Shown in pieces: positions 1 to 11,394 of a stretch of 19,567 nucleotides of DNA; positions within the stretch are counted from its first letter, which is position 1, and every line of letters starts with the position of its first letter. The notes beneath the pieces are model-generated. The model had not been told where the DNA came from. It saw nothing but the letters and a program-made list of their open reading frames with translations, and ran no database searches. A program made the position numbers and the translations under genes. Source of the DNA: a candidate division KSB1 bacterium (GTDB lineage Bacteria > Zhuqueibacterota > JdFR-76 > DREG01); the NCBI GenBank assembly GCA_022566355.1, contig JADFJB010000093.1, positions 1 to 19,567 on the forward strand. Reading direction: 5' to 3'.

Positions 1-988
1 GTCCGTCGATTGGCAATTTAGCCAAAATATCCTCATGAATTCCACTGCCATTATCAGAAATTGTGATTCGAATTTTTCCATCAAATTCACTAATTTCAAT
101 ACTTATCTGGAAGGGTTGGTTTTTGTTTTGCCAGCCATGGCGAATCGAATTCTCAATGATCGGTTGCATAAATAATACCGGCACATTTTGAGTAACGCCG
201 TTTACATTCTCTTGCCATTTCACTTGCAGCATTTCTCCAAACCTGGCCTGAAGCAGGTTCAGGTATTCCCGGGTAAATTGCAGCTCTCGTTGTAATTCGA
301 TTAAATTTTGCGATGCTCCCTGGAAAAAATAACGCAAAATATTACTCAGTTGAATAACCAACTGTTCCGATTTAACCGGATCTTTTCGGATAAAAGAAGC
401 AATGGTATTAAGTGAATTAAACAGGAAATGAGGTTCAATTTGAGATCGCAAAGCTGTTAGTTCGGCGCTTTGAAGCGCTTGTTTTTGCTTGTTTTCTTGC
501 CAGCGAATTTCTATGAAACTCCCCACCAGGCTGGCCATTCCGATAAGAAAAATCATGGCAAAAAAAGGTATTGAAACTGCCCGCAACTCCGGACTAAGCA
601 ATGAAGTTGGCCGGCCTGCCCCGAATGAAGATGTCACAAGATACACGAATCCCTTCAATATACTGTCGACGAACGCTTCGTTAATCGAATCAATAGGTAG
701 TAGAACAAAAGTTTGAAATACAAACCCCAGGAGATAAGCTGAGCAGACTGCAGTTGCATATAAAAAGCTTCTAAGAATAAGTTGTTGAGAATACGGAAAA
801 ACGGAAAGTTTGGCAGCAATAATCTTGTGGACCATATAAAAAACTGAAAAAATTGAAATTGCATAAAAATAGCCAATTGCAACAGCTTTTGCTAGCAAAT
901 CGGTTCTGGCTAAAAAGACAAAGGATAGAAAGGCGCCACCCATTAATACAGAAAAAATAAGCAGTAATATTTTGTAGATTTTTTTCAA
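1..988 (-). CDS. LytS/YehU-type membrane sensor histidine kinase, 3' end cut by window edge
   Basis: The reading frame is open from a TTG codon at 988-986 to the window edge (329 codons seen). It has about four hydrophobic N-terminal segments, then a His_kinase (PF06580-type) transmitter. The phosphoacceptor is His187 in QIEPHFLFN, the N-box is ENSIRHG (Asn280), and the ATP lid begins at DNGSG (Asp312). Kinases of this family autophosphorylate and usually pass phosphate to a LytTR response regulator, which would lie to the left, outside the window. The TTG start is chosen because GGAAA sits just upstream and because translation from it aligns end to end with the start of the neighbouring phosphatase (1150-2457). 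An in-frame ATG at residue 16 would cut the first membrane helix. The N-terminal ~170 residues are clearly paralogous to that phosphatase. What the sensor detects is unknown. Confidence 0.9.
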   Translation of the reverse strand, partial: MKKIYKILLLIFSVLMGGAFLSFVFLARTDLLAKAVAIGYFYAISIFSVFYMVHKIIAAKLSVFPYSQQLILRSFLYATAVCSAYLLGFVFQTFVLLPIDSINEAFVDSILKGFVYLVTSSFGAGRPTSLLSPELRAVSIPFFAMIFLIGMASLVGSFIEIRWQENKQKQALQSAELTALRSQIEPHFLFNSLNTIASFIRKDPVKSEQLVIQLSNILRYFFQGASQNLIELQRELQFTREYLNLLQARFGEMLQVKWQENVNGVTQNVPVLFMQPIIENSIRHGWQNKNQPFQISIEISEFDGKIRITISDNGSGIHEDILAKLPIDG

Positions 989-1022
989 ATTGTTTCCAGA
1001 TCTATATTATTTCTTAAATCAG

Positions 1023-1151
1023 AAATCCGAAGCACAAATATCTAAACAATATCTAAATGATAATGCTTCAAATATCAAACAAATCCAAAATAGTTACCAT
1101 ATTTAAGACATTGAGATTTGGATATTAAAATTTGTTTATGATTTCGGATTT
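1023..1151. repeat. AT-rich palindromic intergenic repeat, copy 1
   Basis: The outer arms are AAATCCGAA (1023-1031) and TTCGGATTT (1143-1151), a 9-bp perfect inverted pair. Imperfect complementary AT-rich sequence continues inward (ACAAATATCTAAACAAT against ATTTGTTTATG). The element is about 129 bp and fills nearly the whole gap between the phosphatase and kinase genes. Its right arm contains two bases of the phosphatase stop codon (1150-1152). Size, base composition and style resemble the element at 18720-18852. No coding potential or transposase gene is seen, so it would have to be a non-autonomous or structural repeat. Confidence 0.5.
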
Positions 1152-2457
1152 AGTGCTTCTGAAAACGAAGCGCCACGAACGTTATATCATCTTCCTGGGG
1201 TCTGTCATTTCTCCAATTTTCAGCTGAATTAAATAAATGGTTTATAATTTCCTGGGGTGATCGTTCGGCAACTTCCTCAAAGCATTGCTTAGCCCTGGTA
1301 TAATCAAAAATTTCTTTTCTTGGATTGAATAACTCCGGGAAACCATCTGTCATGAGTAAAATAGTATCACCGGGGTAAAGTTCAATTTTTTGATCTTTGA
1401 AAGGGAAATGATCATGCGCTCCCAACGGCATACTTTTCAGGAAAATCTCTTCAACTTTCTTCTCGCGAGTGCGATAAACCAATGTTGGCGGCATCCCGGC
1501 TGAGGTGATTTGCAGTTGATTTCCGACGAATTTCGCTAAAGTTAAGGACATGTATAAATTGCCCAAATTCATTTGTCGAATCGTTTGATTGATGCGTTGG
1601 AGTATTTCCAAAATTTCAAAATCTGTTGTCAGGACAGTAAACATACTTTTGGCGGCTGTGACCATCGTTCCGGCTTTAGCGCCATGGCCTGTCGCATCGC
1701 CGATAGCTATCGTGAGTGTATTATCCCCGGCTAAATGAAAGTCATAGTAATCCCCTCCAACTTCGGTAGCGGGCTTCATGAACACAGCTATTTCAAGATT
1801 TGGTAATTTCGGAATCGTTTTAGGCAGCATGGAAAGTTGTAAATCCCGGGCTTCTTCAAGCTCTTTGGTTTTCCTGACATTTTCAGCTTCCAGCATATCC
1901 CGTTCATGCTGTGCTTTTACCGTCAGCAATTCAGCTTGTTCGATCGCTCGCTTCTTCTTATTATCTTGCCAGCGGACCTCCACAAAACTACCGACGATGC
2001 TAACCAATCCGATTAAGAAAATCATGGCAAAGAACGTAATCGAAATGGTTTGGAATTCGGAACTAAACATTTCTTCGGATGTTTCTCCTTTGAATAAAGA
2101 AGAAATCATATAAACAAATCCCTTCCAGGCATTATCAATGACAGCATTTTGAACATCTTGAAAGGGCAAAAGAACGATGGTTTGAAAAACGAAACCTGCT
2201 AGATAAGCAAAAGATATAGCTATGGTGTATAGCAAACTTCTTACAATCAACTGCTGTCCCGCTGGTAAGACCGTTAATTTTGAGGCCATCAATTTATGGA
2301 CGAGTAAAAAGACAATGGTTGCAGTGACTGCATAAAAATAACCGATTGAGAGTGCTTTGTAGATAGACTCCGTTTTTGGAAAAAATAAAATAGATAAAAA
2401 GAAGCCGCCAATAACGACGGCTCCTAAAGTAATAAGAATTTTTTGGTATCGACTCAT
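1150..2457 (-). CDS. Membrane-anchored PP2C-type serine/threonine phosphatase (SpoIIE/RsbU class)
   Basis: 435 residues. The first ~160 form a multi-helix membrane domain (hydrophobic runs near 8-27, 37-54, 72-98 and 138-158). A charged, probably coiled-coil linker follows (165-208), then a SpoIIE phosphatase domain (215-433). The metal-binding acidic positions of the family are visible: GGDYYD (Asp236), GDATGHG (Asp254), MTDGFPE (Asp371) and EDDITF (Asp424). The LSMLP motif at 208-212 is typical just before the domain. Such enzymes dephosphorylate anti-sigma-antagonist proteins (STAS domain) in partner-switching systems; no STAS or RsbW gene lies in this window. Its ATG overlaps the stop of the upstream gene (ATGA, 2454-2457), indicating translational coupling. 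The sensor domain is paralogous to that of the kinase at 1-988. Confidence 0.92.
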   Translation of the reverse strand: MSRYQKILITLGAVVIGGFFLSILFFPKTESIYKALSIGYFYAVTATIVFLLVHKLMASKLTVLPAGQQLIVRSLLYTIAISFAYLAGFVFQTIVLLPFQDVQNAVIDNAWKGFVYMISSLFKGETSEEMFSSEFQTISITFFAMIFLIGLVSIVGSFVEVRWQDNKKKRAIEQAELLTVKAQHERDMLEAENVRKTKELEEARDLQLSMLPKTIPKLPNLEIAVFMKPATEVGGDYYDFHLAGDNTLTIAIGDATGHGAKAGTMVTAAKSMFTVLTTDFEILEILQRINQTIRQMNLGNLYMSLTLAKFVGNQLQITSAGMPPTLVYRTREKKVEEIFLKSMPLGAHDHFPFKDQKIELYPGDTILLMTDGFPELFNPRKEIFDYTRAKQCFEEVAERSPQEIINHLFNSAENWRNDRPQEDDITFVALRFQKH

Positions 2458-3572
2458 GCAGTTTGTTGATTATTTGTTTGCTTTAATTTCCAAATATATA
2501 GTACAAAACTGCCAAAACCAAAACAGATAATAGCCAGGTTTATTAACCAACCGAAATAGGGCATTTTAGGTAAGAGATACGCAATTAGTAATCCCACAAA
2601 CAATGATGCGATCAATAAATTTGAGCCATTATTCTTTTTTATTTGAGTAATCACAAAATCACCCAGGTAAAGCGCTGAAAACAGGGTGCTTAAATAGAGC
2701 ATAATTAAATAGAATGCTAATAGAATTAACGCGATTGGAATAGTTAAAACCAATGCTGTTAATATTACAATTACGACAGGAATTCCAACTAAGAATAACA
2801 ATCCCATTCCGAGACTCTTTATTTGCTCAGTTCCGGCATAGGTGACATAATCTCTGCAAAAATTTTTAAAAAAAGACGTAAAAACAACCCCAATCAAAAA
2901 CATAGAAAAAAAGGACCAATAGAAAAATCCACGAGTAAAAAACAGGCGTTTTTTACGATTTTCGACTTCCAAATCAGCCGGTACATTTTCCGCGTCCTGA
3001 TCTAAAGGTTTATTTAGTTTCAGGGATGTTCCTTCTTTAGCATCATATCCCGGTCCAAATGATATATGATCGGCTTCCAGTTCCACATAACCTGCAACGG
3101 TGCCATCCAAATGGATTCTGCCGCCGCCGCCTTTAATATAACCTCCGATTGAGCCGCCATATAAATTCAATTCACCTGTTCCGACAATCAGGTTGCCATG
3201 AATAACCGCACGACTCGAAATGGATACCTGCCCGCAAAAAGCAATTACATCCCCATGCACCTCGCCATCGATATGAATATAGCGGCCAAAGAAAATCACC
3301 CCACCACCAACTTTACCGAGAATAAATAAATCTCCTCCACCAACAACAACATCATCAGTAACAACACCTTCAATGGTGATTCTTTGCCCTCCTGCATAAA
3401 GATCACCATTTAAATAGCCCAAAATATCGATGTTACGTCCAAAGGCGAAAAGATCTGTATTTACAGTGTCGCCTATTGCTAGCCTTATGTTTTTGACGGC
3501 GCGGTAATCCGAAGCCTGTAACAATGGTACCGAAAGCCCAAAAATCATCAATCCAAAAATTAGCTTTTTCAT
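2454..3572 (-). CDS. Exported beta-solenoid (bactofilin-like) domain with C-terminal membrane helices
   Basis: 372 residues from the ATG at 3572-3570. A signal peptide (MKKLIFGLMIFGLS, ending near QAS-DY) is followed by ~170 residues of short repeats with the pattern G-[DNY]-[VIL]-x-[AV]-x-G, for example NGDLYAGGQRITIEG and VHGDVIAFCGQVSI. This is a right-handed beta-helix pattern like bactofilin/polymer-forming proteins, but on the exported side. About four membrane segments follow (near 225-250, 265-320, 330-370). The start is set here because an AGGAAAGGAAG Shine-Dalgarno lies just upstream; a frame extension to 3650 lacks one and would bury the signal peptide. The stop overlaps the phosphatase start by 4 bp. 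Its role is unknown. It may be a cell-envelope scaffold or input to the phosphatase. Confidence 0.82.
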   Translation of the reverse strand: MKKLIFGLMIFGLSVPLLQASDYRAVKNIRLAIGDTVNTDLFAFGRNIDILGYLNGDLYAGGQRITIEGVVTDDVVVGGGDLFILGKVGGGVIFFGRYIHIDGEVHGDVIAFCGQVSISSRAVIHGNLIVGTGELNLYGGSIGGYIKGGGGRIHLDGTVAGYVELEADHISFGPGYDAKEGTSLKLNKPLDQDAENVPADLEVENRKKRLFFTRGFFYWSFFSMFLIGVVFTSFFKNFCRDYVTYAGTEQIKSLGMGLLFLVGIPVVIVILTALVLTIPIALILLAFYLIMLYLSTLFSALYLGDFVITQIKKNNGSNLLIASLFVGLLIAYLLPKMPYFGWLINLAIICFGFGSFVLYIWKLKQTNNQQTA

Positions 3573-3734
3573 ACGCACTTCCTTTCCTGGTTTCGTTTCC
3601 ATATACAAATATACGCTGCTGTTACAAATGGATAGGCTAAACCTGACCAATGGTTGAATTCGGAGGTTCAGCGGTAATAGCGTTATCTAAATGGTCTGGT
3701 GAAGGAATATAAAAAGTGTCTCATCAAGTATTGA

Positions 3735-3854
3735 TTTCATAGTGCCAACAAATTAGGCGTGATCGTTTTATGCAACAAAGGCGGAATCGGAAGTGTTTAC
3801 CCCGGCGGAAGGATTTATAATTTGATTCATGATTATGCTGAAAAATTATTGTAA
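3735..3854 (+). pseudogene. C-terminal remnant of a serine-hydrolase (beta-lactamase-like) gene
   Basis: A frame without start, right after an in-frame TGA (3732-3734), reads FHSANKLGVIVLCN, then a Gly/Pro-rich turn, then RIYNLIHDYAEKLL and TAA (3852-3854). The pattern 'KLGVVVLCN ... G ... IYN-L' closely resembles the last strand and helix of PF00144 serine hydrolases. An intrinsic terminator follows 9 bases later, as expected at the true 3' end of a gene. Everything upstream has been lost or replaced. Family assignment is from pattern memory on about 38 residues. Confidence 0.45.
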
Positions 3855-3863
3855 TTTTGGATT

Positions 3864-3889
3864 GCATCAACCGTGTTGATGCGTTTTTG
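3864..3889 (+). terminator. Rho-independent terminator after the hydrolase remnant
   Basis: Perfect 8-bp stem GCATCAAC/GTTGATGC (3864-3871 with 3875-3882), 3-base loop CGT, then GTTTTTG. It faces the plus strand and lies 9 bases after the remnant's TAA. In the minus direction there is no T-run, so it is probably not the terminator of the minus-strand gene that ends at 3905. Confidence 0.75.
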
Positions 3890-3904
3890 AAATAAGCCCA
3901 GAAG

Positions 3905-5064: not shown

Positions 5065-5103
5065 GGGTTACTTTACAACATAAATACAATAATGAGGTAT
5101 AAG

Positions 5104-5322
5104 ATGAGCATTGCAGTTAGAATATCTGATAAATTAATAAAAGCTGCTAAAATCCAGTCTAAGGTTGAAAATCGTTCCTTAACAGGTCAAATTGAATTTT
5201 GGGCAAAAATCGGTAAAATATCTGAGGAAAATCCTGATTTACCTTACAGCTTTATTAAAGAAATTTTAATCGGTTTAGAACAATTGGATAGTGGCATTGG
5301 GGAAGAATACAGGTTTGGATAA
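5104..5322 (+). CDS. ParD-like type II antitoxin (PF11903-type)
   Basis: 72 residues beginning MSIAVRISDKLIKAAK. The sequence follows the ParD_like antitoxin pattern: an N-terminal ribbon-helix-helix-like part (2-35, with NRSLTGQIEFWAKIGK), then SEENPDLPYSFI and a C-terminal acidic, toxin-binding tail ending EEYRFG. The start is fixed by GAGG at 5094-5097, six bases before the ATG. A TTG-started extension to 5053 would begin inside the operator palindrome and is rejected. The antitoxin neutralises the toxin encoded next and should repress its own promoter through the palindrome. Its end overlaps the toxin gene. Confidence 0.85.
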   Translation: MSIAVRISDKLIKAAKIQSKVENRSLTGQIEFWAKIGKISEENPDLPYSFIKEILIGLEQLDSGIGEEYRFG

Positions 5323-5611
5323 ATCCAAAACATTGCAAGTGTTTCAATCACCACTTTTTACTAAAAAGGTAAAAAAGTTTTCCAAAAAACAAAAAAATGA
5401 GCTGGATAAACAAATTAAAAATCTGTTAGTGAATCCTCTTTTTGGTGAAGAGAAAAAAGGCGATTTAAAAGGGATATTTGTATATAAATTCAAGATATCA
5501 AATGCACAATACTTGTTTTCATATCGATTAAAGGAAAATAACATAGAACTTATTACAATCGGTCCTCATGAAAATTATTATAGAGATTTGAAGACTTATC
5601 TAAAATCATAA
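5315..5611 (+). CDS. RelE/ParE-family toxin, partner of the ParD-like antitoxin
   Basis: 98 residues from a TTG at 5315 that overlaps the antitoxin's last codons. The body reads FTKKVKKFSKKQKNELDKQIKNLL, then GEEKKGDLKGIFVYKF, YLFSYRL and IGPHENYYRDLKTYL. This is the usual RelE/ParE superfamily layout: two N-terminal helices, a beta-sheet, and a C-terminal His/Tyr-rich strand-helix. Relatives are usually mRNA interferases or gyrase poisons; which one cannot be decided here. The start is uncertain: GTG at 5291 would also read, but lies well inside the antitoxin, and TTG 5333 or GTG 5339 are possible. The GGGGAAG at 5298-5304 suits TTG 5315. The frame is intact with no lost segments. Confidence 0.82.
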   Translation: MDKSKTLQVFQSPLFTKKVKKFSKKQKNELDKQIKNLLVNPLFGEEKKGDLKGIFVYKFKISNAQYLFSYRLKENNIELITIGPHENYYRDLKTYLKS

Positions 5612-6838: not shown

Positions 6839-8089
6839 TCAATCTTGTTCTCTCCCAATCCGCTTATCTAATCTTTGCAATCGGTGCAAAAATTTATCTT
6901 TGTACTCTTTGACAAAACCATTGGGCCTGAATTTATCTATAACCTCAATACTCAGCAGGGCTCTCCGGGTAAGCTCCCGAGCTTGAGGAAAATCACTTGC
7001 CTGGTGCTCGTAAGCTTTGGCTAATTCTTCGAATGCTGCCAAACAAAGACCATCTTGCTTTATTGCTTCATACCAATAGCTCATAGCTTCTTCGAACCGA
7101 TTACATTTCTTGTGAATTGCCGCAATACGCAACAACGTTTCGGTTCTCATTTTTTTAGGTAACTCTAAATCAGCCAGCCTGGTGTAAAAAGCAAGGCCCT
7201 CATCGTATGCCTGCAGTTCATCAAAGGCCTTACACATTGTAAGCCAATCCACTTGTTCTTCTGTTATCTCCCTATTGCCACAATAGAGCTGAACCATCTC
7301 ATCCAATAAGCCGACAAGGGTCAGGATATCCAATTTATTGTGTAGGAATACCTGGTTAAGATTTGCCGGATCGTTATTTCGTAAATATTGAAAATACATT
7401 TCGGGAATCAGGTAACCGGGTATATCATCCACCCGATGAACCTTCAGGATATTCGCTTCCACATTTGTAAGAGAGCAGTCAATTAAAGAACGCTTCCATA
7501 TTCTTCGAGCTGCATGTAGAATATCAATGTGCTTGAATCGGTTTACCGGCTTTGCAAACCTGTTAAAAATCATTCTATTGAAGATCAATGGTAAATCGTA
7601 CGACTTACCATTAAAGCTGACTACAGCGCCGCAACCTTCAATCGCCCGGTTAAGCTGATTTTGAAAAGCAAAAAGTATCGAAGCTTCTTCTGAAAAATCC
7701 CGCATGAAGAATTGATCGATGATAAAAGTGTTGTCTTGAAAATATCCTGTCCCAAGCAAAAATGCGACTGTCCCAACTCCTCCTGATAGTCCCGTTGTCT
7801 CCGTATCTACAAAAAGAAGATTTTTCAGGTTAATGTTCTCATAGCCATGCGCCTTGGCTATAAATTTTAATGGAGCAGGTTCATGCGACAAAAGATCACC
7901 CATTCGATAGTTACCGTGATGAAATGAAAAATCAAAACGATATTGAATCCGCCAACATGAACCAAATTTAGTATAAATTTCTTCGCCGTTTAGTTGGGTG
8001 TCTATTGTTGGGTGAGTTATTGTAGGTGGTTCTATTGTCGCTGAAGTCGAATATCGATCCAGGCTGGCTAGTTTTTCTTTTAGGTTCAT
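6839..8089 (-). CDS. mrfB: MrfB (YprB)-like DnaQ/RNase H-fold 3'-5' exonuclease with TPR tail
   Basis: 416 residues. The RNase_H_2/DEDD exonuclease domain covers ~85-265: LLFVDTETTGLSGG (Asp95, Glu97), SFNGKSYDLPL (Asp165) and HNKLDILTL (His250, Asp254), giving the DEDDh-type metal site. The C-terminal ~130 residues (285-405) are helical and TPR-like (AFDELQAYDEGLAFYTRLAD, RFEEAMSYWYEAIK). In Bacillus subtilis the orthologue acts with the MrfA helicase in nucleotide-excision-independent repair of mitomycin C lesions. Here it follows mrfA by only 3 bp, the same arrangement, so co-transcription is expected. Confidence 0.88.
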   Translation of the reverse strand: MNLKEKLASLDRYSTSATIEPPTITHPTIDTQLNGEEIYTKFGSCWRIQYRFDFSFHHGNYRMGDLLSHEPAPLKFIAKAHGYENINLKNLLFVDTETTGLSGGVGTVAFLLGTGYFQDNTFIIDQFFMRDFSEEASILFAFQNQLNRAIEGCGAVVSFNGKSYDLPLIFNRMIFNRFAKPVNRFKHIDILHAARRIWKRSLIDCSLTNVEANILKVHRVDDIPGYLIPEMYFQYLRNNDPANLNQVFLHNKLDILTLVGLLDEMVQLYCGNREITEEQVDWLTMCKAFDELQAYDEGLAFYTRLADLELPKKMRTETLLRIAAIHKKCNRFEEAMSYWYEAIKQDGLCLAAFEELAKAYEHQASDFPQARELTRRALLSIEVIDKFRPNGFVKEYKDKFLHRLQRLDKRIGREQD

Positions 8090-8092
8090 TCG

Positions 8093-10414
8093 TTATCTCT
8101 GTACCTCTGTGCCTCTGTGGTAAATCCCAACACCCAATTCCAAAATTGCCATCGTACTTTTCTTGCCAAGATCACCGACTTCAAGGACAGGTCCGACACA
8201 TGAGGGACAACCATTCTCACATGAACAACTTTGAATCAGCTCTTTGGCTGAAAGCAGCAACCGGTCATGAATTTCAAACAACTTTTCACTTAAACCGATA
8301 CCGCCGGGATAGCCATCATATATAAAAAGCGTAGCCTGTTGGTGAAAAGGAGATTTCAGCATTGCTACCGAGTGTATATCTTTGGGATCGCACATAATAA
8401 ACAGTGGAGCTACAGATTTCATAACATTGCTTAACCCTTTCATGCCGTCGCCAAAGTTAAAACTATTCAGGTTTATCTCAGCCTCAATTTCATCATCGAT
8501 TTGCCACATGTAAGATGCGGTATGCATTTCCAATTCAGGTAGATGTATCTTGCCAAACCCAACATTTTCGTGGGTGTTAAATTTGATTTTCTTGAACATG
8601 GTTGGCGTGGTATTAACCGTCACCTCGCCAAACAATTTATAACCACCCGGCGTTGGTTCTTTTTCGAAAATATCCAATACCTTTAAATCGGTTTTTTCCT
8701 GGGCGTCTGTGTAGTAATCGACATTCACCTCATGCACGTAAGCCTTTTTGCGATCCCAATCCAGTTTGTCCACATGATACTGCTGGCTTTGGTGGATATA
8801 GATAGCTTCGTCATGAAGAAGTAGCGGTGCAGTGTAGAGATCGATTTCACCGATTACTTTAGGATCCGGATTGGTGGTGTCCACAATGACAAAATTTTCC
8901 GACGAAGCGCTGCGCAGGCTCACTTCCTGAGCCGGGTAGATTTCGCTGGTCCAATAAAACCGGCCATTCTGACGGTGGAGCACATGCTTTTCTTCGAGAT
9001 ATTCCAGCATCTCAATGGTTGCATCGATGCCAAATTTTTCCGATTCTTCAAAGGGTAATTCAAATGCTGCGCATTTGACGTGATTCATCAATATCATCAA
9101 GTTATTGGGATTGACAATTCCACTCTCAGGCGGTTTGCCAAAAAAATATTCAGGATGATTGATGATGTACTGATCGATAGGAGCGCTTGAGGCGACCAAA
9201 ATTGCTGCGGAAACATCCGCTCTTCGCCCTGCCCTTCCGGCCTGCTGCCAGGTACTGGCCACAGTTCCCGGATAACCAACCATGATACAGGCATCCAATT
9301 GACCGATGTCGATGCCAAGCTCCAATGCATTTGTGCTTACAACTCCTAAAATAGAGCCGTTTCTCAGGCCCTTCTCGATCTCCCTTCTCTCCAGGGGTAA
9401 ATAGCCGCCGCGGTAACCTTTAATCTTGTCTGTGGGCTTGCGGGAACGGGGCATCATCTCTTTTAGGTATTTTGTAAGAATCTCAACACGAAGCCGGCTT
9501 CTTGCAAACAGAATCGATTGAATATTATGTTGCAGAAATCGTCGAGCGATCCTGGCGGCCTCCTTGACTACAGATCGTCTGATCCCTAATTCCTGGTTCA
9601 CAACCGGCGGATTGTAAAAAATGAAATGCTTTTCACCCTGGGGAGCGCCGTTTGTATCAATTAATTGAAACGGCTCCTCGATAATTTTTTCTGCAAGCTC
9701 TTTGGGGTTTAAGATAGTTGCCGAGCAACAAATAAAAGTAGGGTTCGAATGATAAAATTTACAGATCCGTTTCAGCCGCCGAATCACATTGGACAGGTTG
9801 CTTCCGAAAACTCCCCGGTAATGATGAATCTCGTCAATGACCACAAATTTCAAATTCTCGAATAATTTTATCCAGCGTGTGTGATGCGGCAGGATGCCCT
9901 GATGCAGCATATCCGGATTGGTAACGACGATGTGGCCGCTAGTGCGGATCGCTCTCCTGGCATCGGCGGGTGTATCCCCATCGAAAGTGTAGGTCTTTAT
10001 ATCACTGCCCAAATCCGTAACGATTTTTTGCAGCTCAACCACTTGATCTTGCGACAACGCCTTTGTGGGAAACATATAAAGCGCCCGTGATTCTTTTTCT
10101 TCTAAAATAGTCTGAAGAACCGGCAAATTATAACACAGTGTTTTCCCTGATGCTGTCGGTGTTACAACGACAACATTTTTGCCTGCTCGAATGGAGCGGT
10201 AGGCTTGCTCCTGGTGTGTATAAAGTTGATCGATGCCTACTTGTCTTAATGTGGATATCAATTTCCCGTCAATATCATCCGGAAAGCCGGAAAATTGGGC
10301 TGGTTTGGCATCCAGTATTTTCCATTCTGTAACGTTGGCAGTGAACTGGTTATCGCTGCGAAGTTCACTGAGAACCGTTTTTAGTTTTTTCGAAGGAAAT
10401 TCAGTTAAGTTCAT
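8093..10414 (-). CDS. mrfA: MrfA (YprA)-like DEXH-box helicase with DUF1998 zinc domain
   Basis: 773 residues, the usual size. Superfamily 2 motifs in order: Q-like YTHQEQA (65-71), Walker A TPTASGKT (85-92), DEIH (194-197), SAT (231-233), STNALELGIDIG (360-371) and motif VI QQAGRAGRR (390-398). The C-terminal DUF1998 region (~660-745) ends with four cysteines, C730, C732, C736 and C739, the zinc site known for MrfA. The protein is a 3'-5' DNA helicase that works with the MrfB exonuclease on mitomycin-type DNA damage. The last residues, YHRGTEVQR, and the TAA are encoded by or next to a 28-bp dispersed repeat, so the native tail has been replaced. No clear Shine-Dalgarno is seen at ATG 10414, but Ser-Glu-rich N-terminal homology begins close after it. 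Confidence 0.93.
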   Translation of the reverse strand: MNLTEFPSKKLKTVLSELRSDNQFTANVTEWKILDAKPAQFSGFPDDIDGKLISTLRQVGIDQLYTHQEQAYRSIRAGKNVVVVTPTASGKTLCYNLPVLQTILEEKESRALYMFPTKALSQDQVVELQKIVTDLGSDIKTYTFDGDTPADARRAIRTSGHIVVTNPDMLHQGILPHHTRWIKLFENLKFVVIDEIHHYRGVFGSNLSNVIRRLKRICKFYHSNPTFICCSATILNPKELAEKIIEEPFQLIDTNGAPQGEKHFIFYNPPVVNQELGIRRSVVKEAARIARRFLQHNIQSILFARSRLRVEILTKYLKEMMPRSRKPTDKIKGYRGGYLPLERREIEKGLRNGSILGVVSTNALELGIDIGQLDACIMVGYPGTVASTWQQAGRAGRRADVSAAILVASSAPIDQYIINHPEYFFGKPPESGIVNPNNLMILMNHVKCAAFELPFEESEKFGIDATIEMLEYLEEKHVLHRQNGRFYWTSEIYPAQEVSLRSASSENFVIVDTTNPDPKVIGEIDLYTAPLLLHDEAIYIHQSQQYHVDKLDWDRKKAYVHEVNVDYYTDAQEKTDLKVLDIFEKEPTPGGYKLFGEVTVNTTPTMFKKIKFNTHENVGFGKIHLPELEMHTASYMWQIDDEIEAEINLNSFNFGDGMKGLSNVMKSVAPLFIMCDPKDIHSVAMLKSPFHQQATLFIYDGYPGGIGLSEKLFEIHDRLLLSAKELIQSCSCENGCPSCVGPVLEVGDLGKKSTMAILELGVGIYHRGTEVQR
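8095..8122 (-). repeat. 28-bp dispersed repeat, copy 2 (inside the mrfA 3' end)
   Basis: On the minus strand it begins TACCACAGAGGCAC and matches copy 1 (6781-6808) at 26 of 28 bases, inverted. It encodes the last residues of MrfA, and its end supplies part of the stop codon. MrfB starts 5 bp beyond it. Confidence 0.7.
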
Positions 10415-10632: not shown

Positions 10633-11394
10633 TCAAGTTAAGCTTTTAGGCAACATCGTCAAAAATGGCAGACATTCATCATAATTCAATTCGTGAAAAT
10701 TAACCCCTAAGTTAATGTTCTGATAATATTCATTCAAATGCTCTTTGTAATATTTTTCCGAAATAAGTTTCCAAACATCCGGCGATATGCAGCCTGCTAA
10801 AAACCATTTTTCCAATAACCGGGCCACACGGCCATTGCCATCGGAAAATGGATGGATGTGAACAAATATTAAATGAACAATAGCAACAGAATAAAAAGCT
10901 TCTGCTATTTTAAAATCATTTGCCAAAAACTCATTGATTTGCTCAAAAAATCTTTTCATCTCATTGACTACCTTCTCCGGTTCGACGGCTAAATAAACCA
11001 GACCCTGTTCATTATAAACACCACTGGCTTCGTTTCTATATTTACCCTGCCTGGCCTTGTTCAAAAATCCTTTTGATAATATCTTATGAGCTGCCAATAA
11101 ATGATCTTCAGTTAAGGTATTTGATTGTGCAAATTGATAAGCAGCAATCAAATCCTCTATTTCCTTTACTTCTTTACTCTTTGTGAATTTTTCCCTTGCT
11201 AATCTTTGGTTCATGAAAGTATTCAGATCAACCGTATTGCCCTCGATATTAGAAGAGAAAACAGCCGAAACGGCATTTTTAGTTCCCAAATCTCCATTTG
11301 CTTCACTGAAGTCATAATTTTCAAACCACTCTTGAATTTCAAATCCTACTTCTCGATTGAATGCATCAAAGAATTTTTTGTCAGTTAGATTCAT
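10633..11394 (-). CDS. Fic family protein, class II-type with N-terminal inhibitory motif
   Basis: 253 residues. The catalytic Fic motif HPFSDGNGRVAR (181-192) is complete (HxFx[DE]GNGRxxR), with the flanking FVHI helix. Near the N-terminus SSNIEG (47-52) fits the inhibitory [ST]xxxE[GN] motif whose Glu51 would block the active site, so it should be an auto-inhibited, probably AMP-transferring enzyme. The target is unknown. There is no separate antitoxin gene, consistent with the inhibitory helix being in the same protein. It starts 14 bp after the purL stop on the same strand and is likely co-transcribed with it. No clear Shine-Dalgarno is seen. The frame is intact and the length typical of short stand-alone Fic proteins. 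Confidence 0.88.
   Translation of the reverse strand: MNLTDKKFFDAFNREVGFEIQEWFENYDFSEANGDLGTKNAVSAVFSSNIEGNTVDLNTFMNQRLAREKFTKSKEVKEIEDLIAAYQFAQSNTLTEDHLLAAHKILSKGFLNKARQGKYRNEASGVYNEQGLVYLAVEPEKVVNEMKRFFEQINEFLANDFKIAEAFYSVAIVHLIFVHIHPFSDGNGRVARLLEKWFLAGCISPDVWKLISEKYYKEHLNEYYQNINLGVNFHELNYDECLPFLTMLPKSLT

Follow-up and report, generated by a model that had tools for sequence, protein, structure and literature searches.

The window analysed here, 19,567 nucleotides long, is the entire contig C93 of the 4.62-Mb assembly of a candidate division KSB1 bacterium (genome G000), and it ends inside a histidine kinase gene. Three genes at this end of the window lie on the minus strand in the order bactofilin-like gene, phosphatase gene, kinase gene. 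The bactofilin-like gene (2454..3572; start at 3572 picked by eye, the open reading frame opening at 3650) encodes a membrane protein with a likely signal peptide, beta-helix-like repeats and C-terminal hydrophobic segments. This protein scores 16.8 bits against Pfam Bactofilin (PF04519) and its counterpart in another genome of the same family (G001; locus L016, contig C408) scores 27.2 bits, both below the gathering cutoff of 27.9, and we speak of a resemblance only and do not place it in that family. An ATGA overlap joins this gene, in both G000 and G001, to the gene for a 435-residue sensor-PP2C phosphatase (1150..2457), which was recognized from its open reading frame, its Pfam domain and the motifs GGDYYD, GDATGHG, TDG and EDD. 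Its residues 1-176 (1930..2457) are a membrane sensor copy, residues 177-219 (1801..1929) a predicted linker helix and residues 245-432 (1162..1725) a SpoIIE-type PP2C domain (PF07228, E=3.6e-38). After a gap of 161 nt follows the kinase gene (2..988), which has a TTG start and is cut by the contig end after 329 codons. A membrane sensor (residues 1-176; 461..988), assigned by hydropathy and by alignment to the phosphatase, precedes a His_kinase domain (230..466; PF06580, E=1.5e-24) with the phospho-accepting H187 in the H-box PHFLFN and the start of a HATPase_c domain with its N and G1 boxes (17..166; PF02518, E=5.9e-06). A promoter scan of positions 900-3900 was uninformative, giving fewer sites than shuffled sequence.

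The C-terminus of the kinase is reached through a contig join only. A search of the window genome for LytTR domains gave two matches. One is in a regulator made of a receiver and a LytTR domain, at the beginning of contig C13 (locus L111); the 46 codons ahead of this gene look like the C-terminus that the kinase lacks in the window. The ends of C93 and C13 share a 26-nt overlap in which 24 positions match; strain variation or contig-end errors may account for the other two. From this overlap and the gene content, C13 appears to carry the rest of the kinase and, after it, the LytTR regulator, the neighbour that the earlier note, made from the letters of the window, had predicted. Its term LytS-type kinase holds for the transmitter domain (PF06580) only, since no 5TMR_LYT membrane domain matched in Pfam at E up to 0.1, and we do not call the protein a LytS proper. 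For the kinase, an AF2 model made with four sequences had low quality (pLDDT 55) and was left out of our reasoning. Small genes after the LytTR regulator (L111, 1049-1655) have, read from sequence, a DUF433/DUF5615-type toxin-antitoxin look. Elsewhere in the window we observed a type II toxin-antitoxin pair with a ParD-like antitoxin and a ParE-like toxin (5098-5611), an RNase_H_2 exonuclease-like gene beside a DEAD/DEAH helicase gene with an MrfA zinc-binding domain (6839-10414), which together look like the DNA-repair pair MrfAB known from B. subtilis, and a gene for a Fic/DOC family protein (10633-11394) directly downstream of a gene read as purL.

One membrane sensor on two different outputs

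In a gap-free alignment, residues 1-176 of the G000 kinase and phosphatase are 50% identical, and BLASTP matches the two proteins with 192 bits (E=2e-62). Homology over about 170 N-terminal residues had been proposed in the earlier note, which quoted FFAMIFLIG, SLVGSF/SIVGSF and RWQ[ED]NK; these motifs are present, their positions match, and the alignment bears the proposal out. The similarity extends to about residue 185 and then ceases, and the catalytic domains beyond it are unrelated, as had also been claimed, with PF06580 and HATPase_c in the kinase versus PF07228 (SpoIIE) in the phosphatase. Hydropathy predicts four membrane helices in the sensor, and no solved structure resembling it by sequence was found.

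Membrane segments do inflate alignment scores, so that a similarity of this kind could in principle be hydrophobic chance, or else an assembly artefact, although nothing further was found in favour of either. The local score over the N-terminal 180 residues is 480, compared with 39±7 for plain shuffles and 65±19 for shuffles that keep the hydrophobic positions, the maximum among 2000 of these being 148. Because the score so far exceeds the hydrophobicity-preserving shuffles, the similarity revealed by the pairwise alignment is real and not generic hydrophobicity. Against an artefact speaks the separately assembled genome G001, which has the same arrangement with sensor orthologues 61-64% identical to those of G000, as does the divergence of the third codon positions. 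On the shuffle scores and the arrangement in G001 we have rejected both explanations, to which we attach practically no probability. Second codon positions are far more conserved than third ones, suggesting purifying selection.

By its PF07228 domain and metal-binding motifs the phosphatase is a SpoIIE-type PP2C (PPM) enzyme of predicted activity, and Foldseek matches its catalytic part to RssB, SiaA, Rv1364c and SpoIIE. No RsbT, receiver or HAMP part was detected in the protein. The AF2 monomer model (mean pLDDT 82.8), which has good confidence in the linker and is weak around residues 85-150 of the sensor part, contains one helix, residues 133-209, that links the last membrane segment with the PP2C domain. 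Within this helix the resemblance to the kinase stops at residues 185-190, adjoining H187 of the kinase, and a linker typical of the PP2C family starts there; because the coiled-coil sequence is repetitive, the position of the join has an uncertainty of several residues. The PP2C domain belongs to a large clade with KSB1, Calditrichota, Ignavibacteria and Acidobacteria records, and the window genome alone contains about 20 such domains. Elsewhere the domains of this clade are attached to other parts, which judged from sequence are of membrane, propeller-type or GAF-like character. Among 73 related PP2C loci only one, L016 of G001, carries the sensor; at L020 and L027 the tblastn matches extended into other membrane regions, not the sensor.

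Distribution of the module and direction of the swap

A sensor profile search found the sensor in 5 of 82 genomes of the window's phylum, with two copies each in G000 and G001, which belong to one family, and one copy each in three genomes of another family. It is also present, again as one copy each, in 15 of 40 Calditrichota genomes, while a scan of 395 Bacteroidota genomes, run without a positive control, gave none. Of the 18 genomes with a single copy, 15 belong to Calditrichota and 3 to the window's phylum. A PP2C gene between kinase and bactofilin-like gene was not detected in any of them; for one, G113, the output domain of the sensor is not seen because the contig ends within the sensor. 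All 17 outgroup loci that reach that far have the bactofilin-like gene immediately upstream of the sensor gene, and all 13 whose contig continues have a LytTR regulator immediately downstream of the kinase. G001 has the order bactofilin-like gene, PP2C gene and kinase, as in the window, and its contig also ends in the kinase. Among the genomes searched, the sensor-bearing phosphatase occurs only in G000 and G001, which are uncultured bacteria of different genera. The two genes are neighbours in the only other genome found with the phosphatase, 18 further genomes have the sensor once and lack a sensor-bearing phosphatase, and a conserved co-occurrence of both outputs, which the earlier note had looked to for support, is not general.

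The idea that gene duplication was followed by a swap of the output domain is supported by these results, and distribution, gene order, ATGA coupling and identities together give it a direction. Elsewhere the sensor occurs once per genome, on a kinase wherever the contig reaches far enough, and the phosphatase holds the ATGA-coupled place of the outgroup kinase, as in G015, where the overlap joins the bactofilin-like gene and the kinase. We therefore take the ancestral module to be a bactofilin-like gene, a kinase gene and a LytTR gene, and the phosphatase to be a derived fusion. The kinase sensors of the family are about 50% identical to the nearest Calditrichota sensors, and its phosphatase sensors 42-47%. 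In such a course of events the kinase gene would have been duplicated in tandem in one bacterial family, the copy beside the bactofilin-like gene would have lost its transmitter from about the phospho-histidine onward, and the same copy would have gained a PP2C domain of the clade that is abundant in these genomes. The homology, the domain content, the conserved order, the direction of the swap and the catalytic motifs can all be read at the level of sequence.

The shared position of the phosphatase in G000 and G001 favours one origin. A tree of 22 sequences groups the four sensors of these genomes together with moderate support (91/87), and the order within them was settled neither by this tree nor by quartet tests. 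In G001 the phosphatase and kinase sensors are 70% identical, above the identities of the orthologues, possibly as a result of gene conversion or of slower evolution. Since the quartet tests and the tree leave the topology undecided, neither gene conversion nor a single old duplication is established.

The LytTR regulators of G015 and G034 share 57% and 55% identity with that of the window genome, the next matches among the genomes searched having at most 39%. Those of G119-G121 are 66-67% identical to it and closer than the regulators of the window's own phylum, so the whole module may possibly have moved between phyla. In several Calditrichota genomes it lies among TetR, TolC-like, HlyD-like and ABC exporter genes, named from sequence. 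Exporter genes adjoin it in loci L148-L152, L155 and L112, being of the RND type in L112, and in G015 it is downstream of an AcrB-type RND exporter. These neighbours suggest a regulon of envelope or efflux control; about half of the module loci have neighbours other than exporter genes. In the literature searched we found no description of the module and no paper covering both LytTR and bactofilin.

Signal input and the two outputs

Because the duplicated sensor is fused to a phosphatase in the same putative operon, two signalling pathways could draw on a single input. The conserved neighbourhood, the retention of conserved residues and purifying selection led us to infer that both receptors answer to one signal and share the bactofilin-like protein as input. 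This protein and the membrane bundle would sense an envelope condition, and the last membrane helix of each protein would continue as a signalling helix that reorients a dimeric output. One receptor would then control phosphorylation of the LytTR regulator, and the other would govern the dephosphorylation of a partner phosphorylated on Ser/Thr, which is probably a STAS protein. A shared signal with dual output is plausible, while the topology, the helix mechanism, the phosphatase substrate and a shared response are what we infer beyond the genes themselves. For the account as a whole, that a conserved module gained a phosphatase branch by tandem duplication and output swap and now works with a dual output, we estimate a probability of about 60%.

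The kinase and phosphatase may also answer different signals, since the G000 sensor pair, at 50% identity, is at least as far apart as orthologous kinase sensors from different phyla. On such a reading the diverged receptors would have divided their functions and merely sit together, which agrees with the greater distance of the phosphatase sensors from the outgroup and with the 161-nt gap ahead of the kinase. However, the sensor columns conserved in the outgroup are kept about equally, in 14/17 and 17/17 cases for the phosphatases and 15/17 and 17/17 for the kinases, and the gene order is retained in both genera, and we consider a complete separation of signals rather unlikely.

As the output of the phosphatase the earlier note had imagined a partner-switch sigma pathway, and the window genome does contain numerous STAS and RsbW-like genes, but none adjoins the phosphatase in the window and no SigB/F/G-type sigma factor in the genome exceeds the TIGR02980 cutoff, the best scoring 139 of 234 bits. 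A partner-switch sigma output is therefore unproven, and a sigma-factor target of the phosphatase is unsupported. The same two findings, together with the putative operon, would fit a phosphatase that tunes or switches off its own neighbours, be it the kinase, the LytTR regulator or the bactofilin-like protein, and not a separate STAS pathway. SpoIIE-type PPM enzymes with known substrates, however, mostly act on STAS-type phosphoserine, for which this genome offers many candidates, and there is no known serine phosphorylation of the kinase or the regulator here, making such self-regulation improbable in our view. At long odds, the twin receptors could even form one system that the bactofilin-like envelope protein gates as a whole, the shared bundle and signalling helix allowing mixed kinase/phosphatase dimers. 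If true, such dimers would couple, at the membrane itself, Ser/Thr dephosphorylation to a His-Asp phosphorelay.

Relation to known systems

LytS/LytTR-type systems, such as LytSR, BtsSR and the AlgZ/AlgR kind, share the PF06580 transmitter and the adjacent receiver-LytTR regulator with the present kinase, which differs in having no detected 5TMR_LYT domain, a bactofilin-like gene upstream and an extra phosphatase with the same sensor. In LiaFSR-type three-component envelope-stress systems the gene of a membrane accessory protein lies directly upstream of the kinase-regulator pair; compared by description, the present module is alike in this accessory gene and unlike in its bactofilin-like product and LytTR regulator. 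A sensor found on both PPM phosphatases and histidine kinases has a precedent across organisms in the bipartite RsbQ/RsbP-PAS sensing module (PMC3183031), which also has an adjacent partner gene and a helical linker. There, however, the outputs are reported from different organisms, behind a cytoplasmic PAS domain, whereas here both lie in one putative operon behind a membrane bundle, and RsbQ is by its description no relative of the bactofilin-like protein. With RsbU, RssB, SiaA and SpoIIE (PMC12143880) the phosphatase shares the PF07228 domain, a predicted helical linker and matches in sequence and fold; unlike them, it has a four-helix membrane sensor borrowed from a kinase and no detected part of the RsbT, receiver or HAMP type. 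The ability of a single kind of sensor to drive both histidine kinases and PPM phosphatases has recently been termed a mystery, and exchangeable, crossing helical (coiled-coil) linkers have been proposed to allow it (PMC12143880). The continuous helix modelled for residues 133-209 of the phosphatase fits this proposal.

Modular sensor exchange is thus of a kind already known, and the copying of a sensor from a kinase to a phosphatase is a new variant of it. In this family the exchange seems to have taken place within a single operon that keeps the unswapped version alongside, and related operons display the state before the swap. Since the join is placed to within a few residues and nearly the same sensor, with the same upstream partner, precedes the two outputs to be compared, the exchange hypothesis becomes directly testable, and the pair offers a natural test of how bacteria swap sensors between outputs.
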